From the NCBI GenBank assembly GCA_036245525.1, contig BTPG01000005.1:116854619-116918618 (forward strand): a stretch of 64,000 nucleotides of DNA, in the 5' to 3' direction. The translations under genes were made by a program, and so were the position numbers. The notes under the pieces were generated by a model. The model did not search any database. It was not told where the DNA came from and was given only the letters and a program-made list of their open reading frames with translations. The stretch is from Semisulcospira habei (lineage: Eukaryota > Mollusca > Gastropoda > Semisulcospiridae). Shown one piece after another: positions 9,360 to 63,156 of the stretch (position 1 is the first letter of the stretch; each line of letters starts with the position of its first letter).

Positions 9360-9440
9360 CTAACCCTTTGGCTGTCGGTAGCACATTTTTGTTGCAACGA
9401 TTCCTACAGGAAAATGTGCTACCAACAGCCAAAGGGTCAA
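9360..9440. mobile_element. Palindromic element, core D (copy D1)
   Basis: CTAACCCTTTGGCTGTCGGT on the left mirrors ACCAACAGCCAAAGGGTCAA on the right, around a loop with GATTCCTACAGG. It lies in the intron between the fourth and fifth FRRS1-like coding exons. The ends resemble TTAACCCTTT with one changed base each. Confidence 0.7.
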
Positions 9441-9505
9441 ACAGGTGACAAGTGTGTGCCAAAGGAGGTTTTTTTTTTTGTTGTTAAATTCCCAACAAAA
9501 CTTAC

Positions 9506-9629
9506 ACTAGGCAGTGGTGCGGCAGTGGTGACAGTTGTACAGGTATTGGGAACCGTTGAGAGGGTGCTGTTCACCAGTATCGAGCGGACGTCCACCCAAA
9601 ACGTTGTCTGCATCTTCACAAATGTCGCC
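9506..9629 (-). CDS. FRRS1: FRRS1-like gene, fourth coding exon (end of Reeler domain and linker)
   Basis: The 124-base exon follows an acceptor ending GTGTAG (AG at 9631-9630) and ends before the donor GTAAGT at 9505-9500. One base completes the split Arg codon, giving FRATFVKMQTTFWVDVRS across the junction, which is the usual last strand of a Reeler domain. About 25 residues rich in Thr, Ser, Pro and Val follow, with one Cys. This suits the flexible, probably O-glycosylated linker between Reeler and DOMON domains in this family. The exon ends in phase 0. The intron upstream is about 4.9 kb and is full of repeats. Confidence 0.85.
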
Positions 9630-10376
9630 CTACACAGATCAAACCAGCCATTCTCATGTTTCTTTCCATTTTTCACTTTTGCACTGCCAAAAAATAAAAT
9701 TGTGCACAGCCCTTTGTCGTTGTTCAGTTTGGTATTGGAGACACAAAGAAAGGTCCACCTGTTTATAGCTTTCTTTTATAACCACAACTGCAAGCACACC
9801 TGTCTTTAGGCCCACCCTCATTTTTAAATGTAATATGTGGGCACTGCAGATGTTAATTGTCTTATGTGAACCCTTATAAGAAACTGGTCTCCTTCGAAGC
9901 ACTGGTGTGTTCTCTTTCGTTTGCAATGCATAAAACATTCACCTGTCCCAAGATACAGAAAAGGATCAAATGCAAGATGTTTTCCAAAGAAAAGCAAAGG
10001 CATTTAAATACTGTACAGTTAATTTTTAATGTAAAAGAAACCTGAAGCCAAGACGCAAATTTTTGCCATGATGTTAAAAAATCACCCACCGATTACATGT
10101 AATCTACAGTCTGTCTATCAAATGCTTTAATGCATCTAAATATTGAAACGTTTTCACCAAAACAAAGTCATATCCGTTATGGCATGTTCACGTATAATCA
10201 GCCCGTGATATACAGTGGAGCCCAGAGCAAGATTTTAGTTCCAATACTAACTCTTAAGACAAATTTAGTATTAAAAAATAAATAAATAAGAAAGAAGTGC
10301 TGGTGTAAAATGAAGTCTGGGTGCAAATGACGGAAGAAATATGGACCGCAAAGGTGATTTTGCACTGGGGAATTAA

Positions 10377-10615
10377 TTTCAAGGAGACTATTCAAGGCTC
10401 AGATTTTAAACTTGGCCCAAAGGTACTTTGTGGTAAAGCCTTTCTAAACATACCAAAGTACCCTTGGGCCAAGTTTAAAATCTGAGCCTTGAATAGTCTC
10501 CTTGAAAATGCGAATGTTAAGTTTACCATGGACAACAGATGCCAGACGACAAACGCCGGACACTGGAAGGCCCATTACACAGACTCACTTTTGCTATCGC
10601 ACGTGAACCAAAAAA
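10377..10615. repeat. Large palindrome at the end of a TGACCTT-type repeat
   Basis: 10377-10430 and 10452-10507 are inverted copies of about 54 bases (including TTAAACTTGGCCCAA) with almost no mismatches. After the palindrome comes the family's terminal segment ending CTCACTTTTGCTATCGCACG, also found at 14190-14226 and 17320-17357. Confidence 0.75.
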
Positions 10616-11255
10616 GGGCTCACCTGCTACACTAAGTCTAGTGATGTGTGTGTGTGTGCGTATGTTTACCGCTCTGGTAACAGCTGGTCAAAGCATTTAT
10701 AGCAGCCATAGTGAAACTCCTTGTGGAGATAGCGTTGGCCAGGAACGCAGCATGACGAACATGCGTTGCAAGACAAGGAACTGGCGTTTCAAGCCAGTGA
10801 CCCGGAACTAGCCCAGGGGAGGCAACCCTGGTTGCTCTTTTATTTCCCCTCGGATTGTATCCTTGAGTGCTCATGGCTATCGGTATAGTTGGCAGGGTAG
10901 TAAGACTGATTCCTAATAGTAATGTCATCTGGTAAAGTTGAGGAAAAATGATGATTTGAGCATTCACGGATTGAAAATGCAAGTTGTTTCTACAGTTTGT
11001 GCACCTGTAATGCGTGTAACCCATGATGGTCTATCAATAAATAGCCACAAGAACCAGTTTTCGCACACTTTTTAACTGTTGATGCCATGGGCATGAAAAT
11101 GGGAAAAAAATGTGAATCGCTGAAATGTTCATTTCAAAAGTTCATTGCGATTTTATTTAAATTCTTGTGCATGCAGCTACTGGTAGTGCATGATAAAATC
11201 TGCATGTAGTTCTAACAGATCAAAATCGCAGTCTAAAAGTGCATTAAAAGTGTAT
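10616..11255. other. Intronic sequence
   Basis: No exon is recognised. It contains a short GT run (10644-10658), a degenerate ATTCCTAATAGTAATG box near 10910 and a weak core C-like stretch with TGTGCATGCAG near 11165. Confidence 0.35.
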
Positions 11256-11325
11256 TTAACCCCCTTGTGCATGCAGTCATTGGTGCTGTAAACAGTACCA
11301 GTGGCTGCATGCACAGGGAGGTTAC
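11256..11325. mobile_element. Palindromic element, core C (copy C1)
   Basis: TTAACCCCCTTGTGCATGCA on the left is mirrored by GGCTGCATGCACAGGGAGGTTAC on the right, with a ~20 base loop containing GTACCAGT. The left end is a perfect TTAA. Confidence 0.7.
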
Positions 11326-11344
11326 AAGTTCATTAAAAGTTCAT

Positions 11345-11408
11345 CTGAACCCTCTTGTGCATGAATCCACCTGTACAAGTGGCTGTATGCACAGTGGGGG
11401 TAGAGTTT
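11345..11408. mobile_element. Palindromic element, core C (copy C2, degenerate)
   Basis: ACCCTCTTGTGCATG and GGCTGTATGCACAGTGGGGGT are inverted partners around a short loop. This copy lies directly after C1. Confidence 0.55.
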
Positions 11409-11814
11409 AAACAACGTGAAATAAACACAAACTGATCATGAGCTGTTACCAGTAAAGAGGTCAAGACCACACTTTTCTGTGTAAAATGAATGCACTACAA
11501 CTGGTACAAACTATGGATAAGAAAACTAGAAGATCTGGGTCCCCTAGCATTTTTCAGCATCCAAATTTCACTGAATTTTGTTGGTTGGGTTTTAATCATT
11601 TTTGCTTTTGTTTTTGTACATGTATCCTGGCCACACTTTAGTCTAAAAATTGTCACTGCAGGCACCAACGTGCTAGCAATCAGTGGCAGAAAGAATTATA
11701 TAGTTATTAAATAACGGATTACGGAAACAAAAACAAATTAGTGTGGTATATTTTACCAGTAACTGCAATCATTGTCAATATTCGACTTTTCTTATCATTA
11801 TCACTTTTTTCTAC

Positions 11815-61160: not shown

Positions 61161-61169
61161 CTTTCACGG

Positions 61170-61627
61170 ATAAGGAGGATGAAAAATTGAATCACAAATC
61201 ACGAGAACTAAATACGCCAATCACGTATCACGATTTTAGGGCATACCTCCCCAACCACTTCCCCCACCCCCAACCCCTCCCCCCCCCCCCCCACATACAC
61301 ACACACAACCCCTCCGCCTACATCACATGCCTCCTCCTGACCAAGATCGCCAGCAGCTGGTCATAAAATTCCGACGGCAGCCGTCCCAAATTTTTCTGTG
61401 CATGTCACACGCTTTCCGTCACCTTTTTTGGTATCGCTGTTTCAGTTTCGAATCCCAGCAGCCTGGTGCATTACTTGACTTCCGGCTCGCGACCACACTG
61501 AGAAACAAACATCACATCCTATTAAAACCAGTCACCATTCTTTCGTCATTGACGACAGAAGGGTATTTGAACGAGATGCGAAAATCGCTCCTTCTTCCGT
61601 CCATAGCTGCGAAGAATGCAGGGAAAA
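61170..61627. other. Sequence with no recognised gene
   Basis: C-rich low complexity at 61258-61310. The plus frame 61327-61647 has no recognisable family. Confidence 0.35.
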
Positions 61628-61825
61628 AGGACGGACTTGTTCCATAGCATGTCCGTTGAAAGGTCCTGGTAAATCAAAGTGACACAGCTGCAGTGCGCCT
61701 GAATTGATCAGTGTTCAGGTCGTACTCCATAGGAAATAGATTTCTCTGCCCCCCATAAACCCGCCTGTCATGGCCGTCTATTATCACTTCGGTGCCGTGG
61801 GCGTTAAACCCCGATCTAACCATCT
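61628..61825 (+). mobile_element. SINE, first family, 5' truncated
   Basis: Matches the body of 26641-26955 (CTTGTTCCATAGCATGTCCG, GTCGTACTCC, ATTATCACTTCGGTGCCGTG) and ends GGGCGTTAAACCCCGATCTA. The tRNA head is missing. The tail passes into a CT run (61824-61861) and a few GT units. Confidence 0.8.
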
Positions 61826-61872
61826 CTCTCTCTCTCTCTCTCTCTCTCTCTCTCTCTCTCTGTGTGTGTGTA
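61824..61872. repeat. (CT)n then (GT)n at a SINE tail
   Basis: About 19 CT units plus 5 GT units. Confidence 0.9.
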
Positions 61873-62157
61873 GTCCCTAATGTGTATCTCGCACTCTCTG
61901 TATTTCTTCGTCGGGTTTACTGTATATATGCATAATTATATATAAACAAAGACTTCATGGGCTTGTTTTCCCCATCGTCCAACCGGTTTATTCATATAGA
62001 TTAGGTTCACGTAGCATCTGGAGTACCGGCTGTGGGTATTACATGTAATTTGACTTTCAAATCTAAACTACTCAAAAATTTAGATTCCGCTGCTAATCTC
62101 TCGGCACAGGTCGCGCGATATTTAAAAAAACAAACAACAACAACAACAAAATCGAAA

Positions 62158-62245
62158 GGTCAAGGGAAGTGCCTGATTAGCCAAGCAAATCAGGCACTAC
62201 CCTTGAGCTATCCTGATCGTTCCATCTCTAGCGCCTAGAGCTGGA
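62158..62245. mobile_element. Core A palindrome, third subfamily, short
   Basis: TCAAGGGAAGTGCCTGATT at 62160-62178 is mirrored by AATCAGGCACTACCCTTGA at 62188-62206, with the small loop AGCCAAGCA. The right flank TTCCATCTCTAGCGCC matches 47660-47680. Confidence 0.68.
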
Positions 62246-63110
62246 AGTTAAACTTTACTGATTTTATCGCACGATCAGTCATACCGGCTGTCGGTTGCCG
62301 CCATGCCCCAAGGCGAAGAAATGTCATTAGGATGACATTTCTATCTCCATTTGATGTCTATATTTTATTGAGTTACTGAGTAAGATTGTGCAGTCAAGCG
62401 TGTCATGGTTTCAATGACACGCATGAGAGAACACGCATCATCAAACGACGTGCCGCGCATACACATGTATACACACGGGCAAACATGTTCGCATATAAAT
62501 ATATATATTCAGTCCTTAGGGGACCGAAATTCTGAGTCGTGTCGATGTACGTTTAATGTCCTTTTATTTATAAATTATATGGCATATCCATGTTGTTGTT
62601 CGGGGTTTTTTGTTGTTGTTGTTTTATTGTTTGTTTGTTGTTGTTTTTGTATGTGTGTGTTTTGTTTGTTTTTTGGTTGTTTGCTTTTTTTATTTTTTTT
62701 TATTTTTTCTTCTTCTATTTTTTTTTTTTTTTTGGTGGTGGGGGGCGGGGGTGGGGGGTGGTGGAAGGATGTATGTGTGTGGGGGGGGGGAGGGGAGGGG
62801 GGGTCTTTGTTTGGTGTTTTAATTGTTTGTTTTGGGGTTTTTGTTTTTGTTGTTTTTTGTTGTTGTTTGTGGGGTTTTTTGTTTTTTGTTTTTTGGGTTT
62901 TTTTTCTTTTTTTTTTTTTCTTTTTTGGGGGGAGTTGTTTTTCTGCCCTTCTAATCTGAATTGCCCCCAACTGGCATAAAGAAGTGTTTTCATCACTGTC
63001 TTGTACACGGTTCGTGACAATATGACGTTCCTATAACATAGTGTGTTTCCGAGCATATGTTGTATTTTGAGGTCGAAAGCTTGAGGTAACTCGAGCTCGT
63101 ATAAGACACA
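62246..63110. other. Sequence with no gene; strong T/G bias
   Basis: 62590-62940 is almost entirely T and G, producing long meaningless open frames on both strands. No feature otherwise. Confidence 0.5.
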
Positions 63111-63116
63111 GAGCTA

Positions 63117-63156
63117 GCAAGAGGCATAGATTCTCATGAGAATCTATGCCTCTTGC
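63117..63156. mobile_element. Core B palindrome, minimal and perfect
   Basis: A 40-base perfect palindrome with no loop: GCAAGAGGCATAGATTCTCA followed by its exact complement. The GC-rich centre found in other B copies is missing. Confidence 0.8.

Follow-up and report, generated by a model that had tools for sequence, protein, structure and literature searches.

Palindromic Elements in the Analyzed Window

We analyzed 64,000 nucleotides of contig BTPG01000005.1 from the gastropod Semisulcospira habei (GenBank assembly GCA_036245525.1, positions 116,854,619 to 116,918,618; this whole stretch is referred to as the window), which contain many copies of short TTAA-flanked elements with palindromic bodies. 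The elements form five families, A to E. They are non-coding, approximately 70-245 bp long and present in approximately 40 or more copies per 64 kb, which fits miniature inverted-repeat transposable elements (MITEs) of the piggyBac/TTAA type. In families A and B the two arms of the palindrome are matched to each other within the individual copies.

By its composition, its simple repeats and its open reading frames (ORFs) for reverse transcriptases the window belongs to a repeat-rich animal genome. Among the best 120 of 7288 matches to the long interspersed element (LINE) ORF at 38628-40271, a relative on a JGI contig is 97% identical and the best match carrying an animal name is from the sea snail Littorina saxatilis (57%). 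The core patterns of A, B and D had no matches in IMG/VR, the A core pattern had none in prokaryote genomes, and no Rfam family matched at gathering score.

An unbiased scan for palindromes (score ≥ 18, loop ≤ 30, low-complexity filtered) revealed 20 strong palindromes with arms of 19-56 nt. Seven belong to A, five to B, three to D and two to E; three are located outside these families (10377-10507, 51505-51590 and 55219-55288). The same scan found no strong palindrome in either of two second-order Markov windows. Copies of C score below the cut-off and are visible in a separate inverted-repeat listing. Profile searches (E up to 1, hand-merged), whose models derive from 13 A and 4 B loci in the same window, identified approximately 23 loci for A and 19 for B, several being weak hits. 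Together with the few copies of C, D and E, this makes the "about 40 copies" of the preliminary description a fair count.

Terminal words were compared with 30 first-order Markov windows. TTAACTCATT is clearly over-represented, with 5 occurrences (mean 0.13, maximum 1). The excess is weaker for TTAACCCT?TT[CG] (4; mean 0.5, maximum 2) and for TTAACCC (20; mean 9.5, maximum 16). Neither TTAA itself (278 observed, 324 expected) nor TTAACTC (13 observed, 10.4 expected) is enriched.

Of the three palindromes outside the families, the one at 10377-10507 has arms of 54 nt (98%), with TTAA bordering just one of its sides; the one at 55219-55288 has arms of 32 nt and TTAT on both flanks.

Architecture of the Five Families

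Elements of family A are approximately 195-230 bp long and consist of a long flank (78-103), a hairpin and a short flank (53-60; one mis-cut). The following copies were delimited:

18273..18483, minus strand: TTAA at both ends, nested in a B element; hairpin 18312-18407, arms 46 nt with 0 mismatches
18673..18896, plus strand: TTAA at both ends, the first TTAA being the end of a B element; member of a sibling trio
23936..24158, minus strand: belongs to the sibling trio; the only terminal TTAA is at 23936
56115..56345, minus strand: third sibling of the trio, with TTAA at both ends; a 31-bp hairpin unit is duplicated
14286..14508, plus strand: TTAA left, CTAA right; hairpin 14371-14470
53050..53271, plus strand: TTAA left, right end mutated; hairpin 53110-53225, arms 56 nt, 96%
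58255..58448, plus strand: right hairpin arm shortened by a deletion
55895..56024, plus strand: hairpin interior lost
26011..26172, minus strand: retains little of one arm and lacks the hairpin interior
35865..36085, minus strand: flanks bridging two end types; hairpin decayed, 10 of 43 arm positions mismatched
47439..47609, minus strand: TTAA at 47439; hairpin 47485-47564

Two other repeats touch A copies. A tandem array at 47528-47727 (2.2 units of approximately 91 bp) includes part of an A hairpin arm and recalls the tandem arrays of the CMITEs, which are piggyBac-type MITEs of Acropora corals (PMC2872659). Directly before a truncated A copy, at 59358-59592, lies an inverted repeat whose 105-nt arms (93%) enclose a spacer of 25 nt.

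Family B elements are approximately 215-245 bp long:

18225..18676, plus strand: split by A 18273-18483, TTAA at both outer ends; palindrome approximately 18565-18629
46883..47106, plus strand: TTAA at both ends; palindrome 46994-47059
52259..52472, plus strand: TTAA right, TCAA left; palindrome 52365-52430
50814..51029, minus strand: its alignment with the rejoined B copy spans the nesting site
44385..44453, no strand assigned: B palindrome without recognized TTAA ends

Further B palindromes without recognized TTAA ends are located at 36433, 46428, 46662 and 63114; like that at 44385, they match the B model only in and near the core.

The other three families are represented by:

11256..11325, plus strand: C element, palindromic nearly to its tips
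9361..9439, plus strand: D element, palindromic to its tips, arms 27 nt
54939..55019, plus strand: E element, TTAA at both ends, palindromic to its tips
53702..53781, plus strand: E element (53706-53777) between direct TTAG words; arms 34 nt, 0 mismatches

All five copies that the preliminary description had listed as complete carry TTAA at both ends (A 18273-18483 and 56115-56345, B 46883-47106, D 19551-19645, E 54939-55019). The sequence of the D copy at 19551-19645, which had been called a near-perfect palindrome, is decayed. A single plan of outer ends, unique flanks and central palindrome had also been proposed for all families; it holds for A and B, the only families with unique, asymmetric flanks outside the palindrome, but not for C (11256), D (9361-9439) and E (54939, 53706), which are palindromic to or nearly to their ends.

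Insertion at TTAA

Nesting demonstrates insertion at TTAA. The A element 18273-18483 interrupts a B element at this tetranucleotide. After removal of A, with one TTAA kept, the rejoined B halves align as one sequence with the minus-strand B element near 51029 (blastn, 222 columns, 68%, E 2e-21), which serves as paralogous empty site. In addition, E 53706-53777 is flanked by a TTAG/TTAG duplication, and A 18673-18896 starts within the TTAA that closes the B element (18676). These three observations agree with the earlier view that the elements are remnants of TTAA-targeted DNA transposons. The target duplication is that expected of piggyBac/TTAA MITEs, with TTAG instead of TTAA in one E copy.

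Palindrome Arms Are Matched Within Copies

To compare arms within and between copies we used 14 A loci with two alignable arms and 10 of 11 B pairs, which passed a limit of 15 columns. In family A the two arms of a copy differ at 12.7% of positions, whereas arms of different copies differ at 20.6% (opposite side) and 20.5% (same side). The respective values for B are 10.1%, 17.4% and 17.5%. None of 5000 permutations gave a within-copy difference as low, either for A or for B, and the result is the same without the sibling trio. Non-consensus bases common to both arms number 21 in A (8.9 expected) and 9 in B (2.5 expected).

Covariation counts on chosen sets of 10 A and 10 B cores gave a similar picture. 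Cells changed on both sides number 22 in A (13.4 in shuffled data) and 11 in B (3.8), counts not reached by any of 500 shuffles in either family. Pairs changed on both sides number 15 in A (10.2 in shuffled data; 7 of 500 shuffles) and 8 in B (3.2; 1 of 500). Further pair types reached their count in 8 of 500 shuffles for A. Structures slid out of register score far lower. In family E, two copies carry the same differences in both arms at 5 positions.

Mismatches inside A and B copies comprise 20 G.T and 22 A.C on the plus strand of the window. RNA pairing as the sole cause of matched arms is unsupported, since G.T is not in excess.

Siblings and Decayed Copies

The sibling A trio (18673, 23936 and 56115) shows nine private changes in a single arm and none in both arms. 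No inverted spacer was seen between the three siblings when the short spacers of seven A copies were compared by eye. In four old copies the arms are mismatched at 23-35% of positions. The nine unpaired private changes and these four copies suggest that the arms were equalized in the founding lineages of subfamilies and not in dead copies. The arms thus look as if they were equalized in source lineages and decayed after insertion.

Several copies have lost hairpin sequence. The interior is missing in A 55895 and 26011 as well as in the E copy at 51357, and part of an arm is missing in 58255 and others. Such losses would fit an instability of palindromes.

Origin of the Matched Arms

Taken together, the elements are probably several short non-autonomous cut-and-paste families (MITEs) of the piggyBac/TTAA type with long-palindrome bodies, whose arms were made identical in source copies and have decayed since insertion. 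PiggyBac-superfamily transposases encoded elsewhere in the genome would probably mobilize them. From time to time both arms of a source copy would become identical during propagation. The likeliest route might be fold-back template switching, in which one arm is copied from the other; this is the most economical proposal because many positions are rewritten in a single event. Elements with a good hairpin perhaps spread better, which would aid the matching of arms. After insertion, dead copies would decay arm by arm or delete the hairpin.

Several points weigh against this interpretation. All element copies compared are located in one 64-kb window, and no transposase was found among the 10 ORFs of the window that were scanned, five of which code for reverse transcriptases. 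The nesting junction is crossed in one alignment by only one of four B comparisons: B 46883 matches the rejoined B element on both sides in separate pieces, and B 52256 and B 14809 match it to the right of the nesting site only. Only 10 of 28 A arms and 5 of 20 B arms are strictly closest to the other arm of their copy (one tie each), and further pair types are weak in B (36 of 500 shuffles). Relatedness is not preserved in the shuffled data, and a small number of founders per subfamily would inflate the scores. Finally, the trio flanks carry 22 private changes in 292 positions (0.075) and the arms change less (0.042), so that some constraint or in-place repair is possible.

A stronger version of the source-copy interpretation can be put forward tentatively, although it probably does not hold. 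Here, mobilization itself would restore a perfect palindrome: every burst begins with a source in which one arm has been rewritten from its partner, new subfamilies arise through rewriting templated by the hairpin, and arm mismatch is an insertion clock. If this were true, arm mismatch would date an insertion in the same way as the two long terminal repeats of a retrotransposon.

Alternatively, the hairpin might be under selection at the RNA or DNA level, for instance as a source of small RNAs or as a structure bound by transposase, with compensating changes keeping the arms matched. The covariation in A and B would be expected in this case, as would the better conservation of the A core than of the flanks between copies (0.711 vs. 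0.515; 55 pairs of 11 copies), a comparison that is biased because the copies were found by their core. In the sibling trio this gap is small (0.87-0.91 vs. 0.84-0.90). Furthermore, piggyBac and piggyBat transposases bind short palindromes in their ends with cysteine-rich domains (PMC11707139). Those palindromes, however, are approximately 14-19 bp long and located near the tips, whereas the arms here reach 46-56 nt and lie in the middle of the element. Piecewise compensation of 46-nt arms would need many double hits, G.T mismatches are not in excess, and Rfam gave no match. Compensating selection is an unlikely cause.

Equally, we do not expect that template switching equalizes the arms in place and continually in every copy, mobile or not. 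Homogenization of short inverted repeats by template switching, where one arm is copied from the other and matched arms result, has been published for yeast (PMC8604942), but there it is described for host loci and not for mobile elements. Several copies with damaged ends retain near-perfect arms (14286, 1 of 41 positions mismatched; 53050, 2 of 43), which leaves room for possible in-place repair. Continual repair in all copies is, however, difficult to combine with the absence of paired changes among the private changes of the trio and with the four strongly mismatched copies.

The preliminary description had proposed that the palindromic cores are exchangeable, that is, mobile modules swapped between TTAA frames, with one enzyme serving several core families. 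The sequence TTAA-C(C/T)C is common to the ends of all families and B palindromes are found without recognized B flanks, which such exchange might produce. The A flanks, however, are homologous across end types. Those of 35865-36085 align with both A end types (scores reached by 0-1 of 1000 shuffles in five of six tests and by 230 in one). The direct comparison of the two end types is weaker, with 1 to 108 of 1000 shuffles in seven tests; an eighth test gave 628, the short-side flank of 56115 having been wrongly cut. Both A end types belong to one family and core exchange is thus not shown. No flank pair was seen with two different cores, and in C, D and E the palindrome leaves no frame around it. 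The similarity between A and B flanks is only weak (in six tests the score was reached by 19-104 of 1000 shuffles). We regard core exchange as very improbable.

The ends bear on the superfamily. They read CCC(C/T)T in B, C, D and one A type and CTCATT in the other A type and E. Among 34 listed ends, 22 are TTAAC[CT]C, compared with 33 of 556 TTAA sides in the window; the list was picked by hand, partly by similarity, and at least three ends that are out of register (54256, 51029 and 26193) were kept in the denominator. TTAAC, TTAAG, TTAAA or out-of-register ends make up 31 of the 34. One B end agrees in 13 of 14 bases with the end published for family VI of the coral CMITEs (PMC2872659). That the elements belong to Kolobok or another TTAA superfamily is highly unlikely: Kolobok also targets TTAA, and its T2-MITEs in Xenopus share the high copy number, but Kolobok termini are purine-purine, such as AGGRR (PMC6004289), and a large majority of the ends listed here begin with C. 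Of the two superfamilies named previously, piggyBac is thus retained by kind of end only, which supports a better fit than to Kolobok; from target and ends, the mobilizing enzyme would be a piggyBac-type transposase.

Comparison with Known Elements

Foldback elements such as Galileo also have bodies that consist largely of inverted repeats; they are much longer than the elements described here and use other target sites.

The closest known elements are the coral CMITEs. They share the TTAA target duplication, CC(C/T)T-type ends and a length of about 100 bp (CMITE), and they likewise comprise several end families around an interior of higher conservation than the ends, with nesting and tandem arrays (PMC2872659). 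They differ in that the 60 interior bases printed there fold weakly (−4.7 kcal/mol, DNA parameters) and form no long palindrome; these 60 bases gave no blastn match in the window. A covarying palindrome is not described for CMITEs in the available text of that report. A palindromic core had been called unusual for MITEs, which is fair for A and B, although a conserved interior has been published for the piggyBac-type CMITEs. Covarying palindromic cores in TTAA MITEs were not found in the titles or abstract openings of papers listed by literature searches (at most 10-25 papers each), which does not prove their absence.

Independent mutation is the expected way for MITE copies to age. DNA-transposon remnants in which the hairpin arms evolve together in the source and decay separately afterwards would offer a natural system for testing how palindromes arise and persist in animal genomes, and could date insertions. 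They also bear on the question why some piggyBac-type MITEs, CMITEs included, conserve the interior over the ends.

Dispersed Repeat

A dispersed repeat of approximately 300-400 bp containing TTGATTGATTGTACATTGC is located at 246-1032, 6015-6400 and 56712-57097. It is partly tandem at the start of the window and looks like a short interspersed element.

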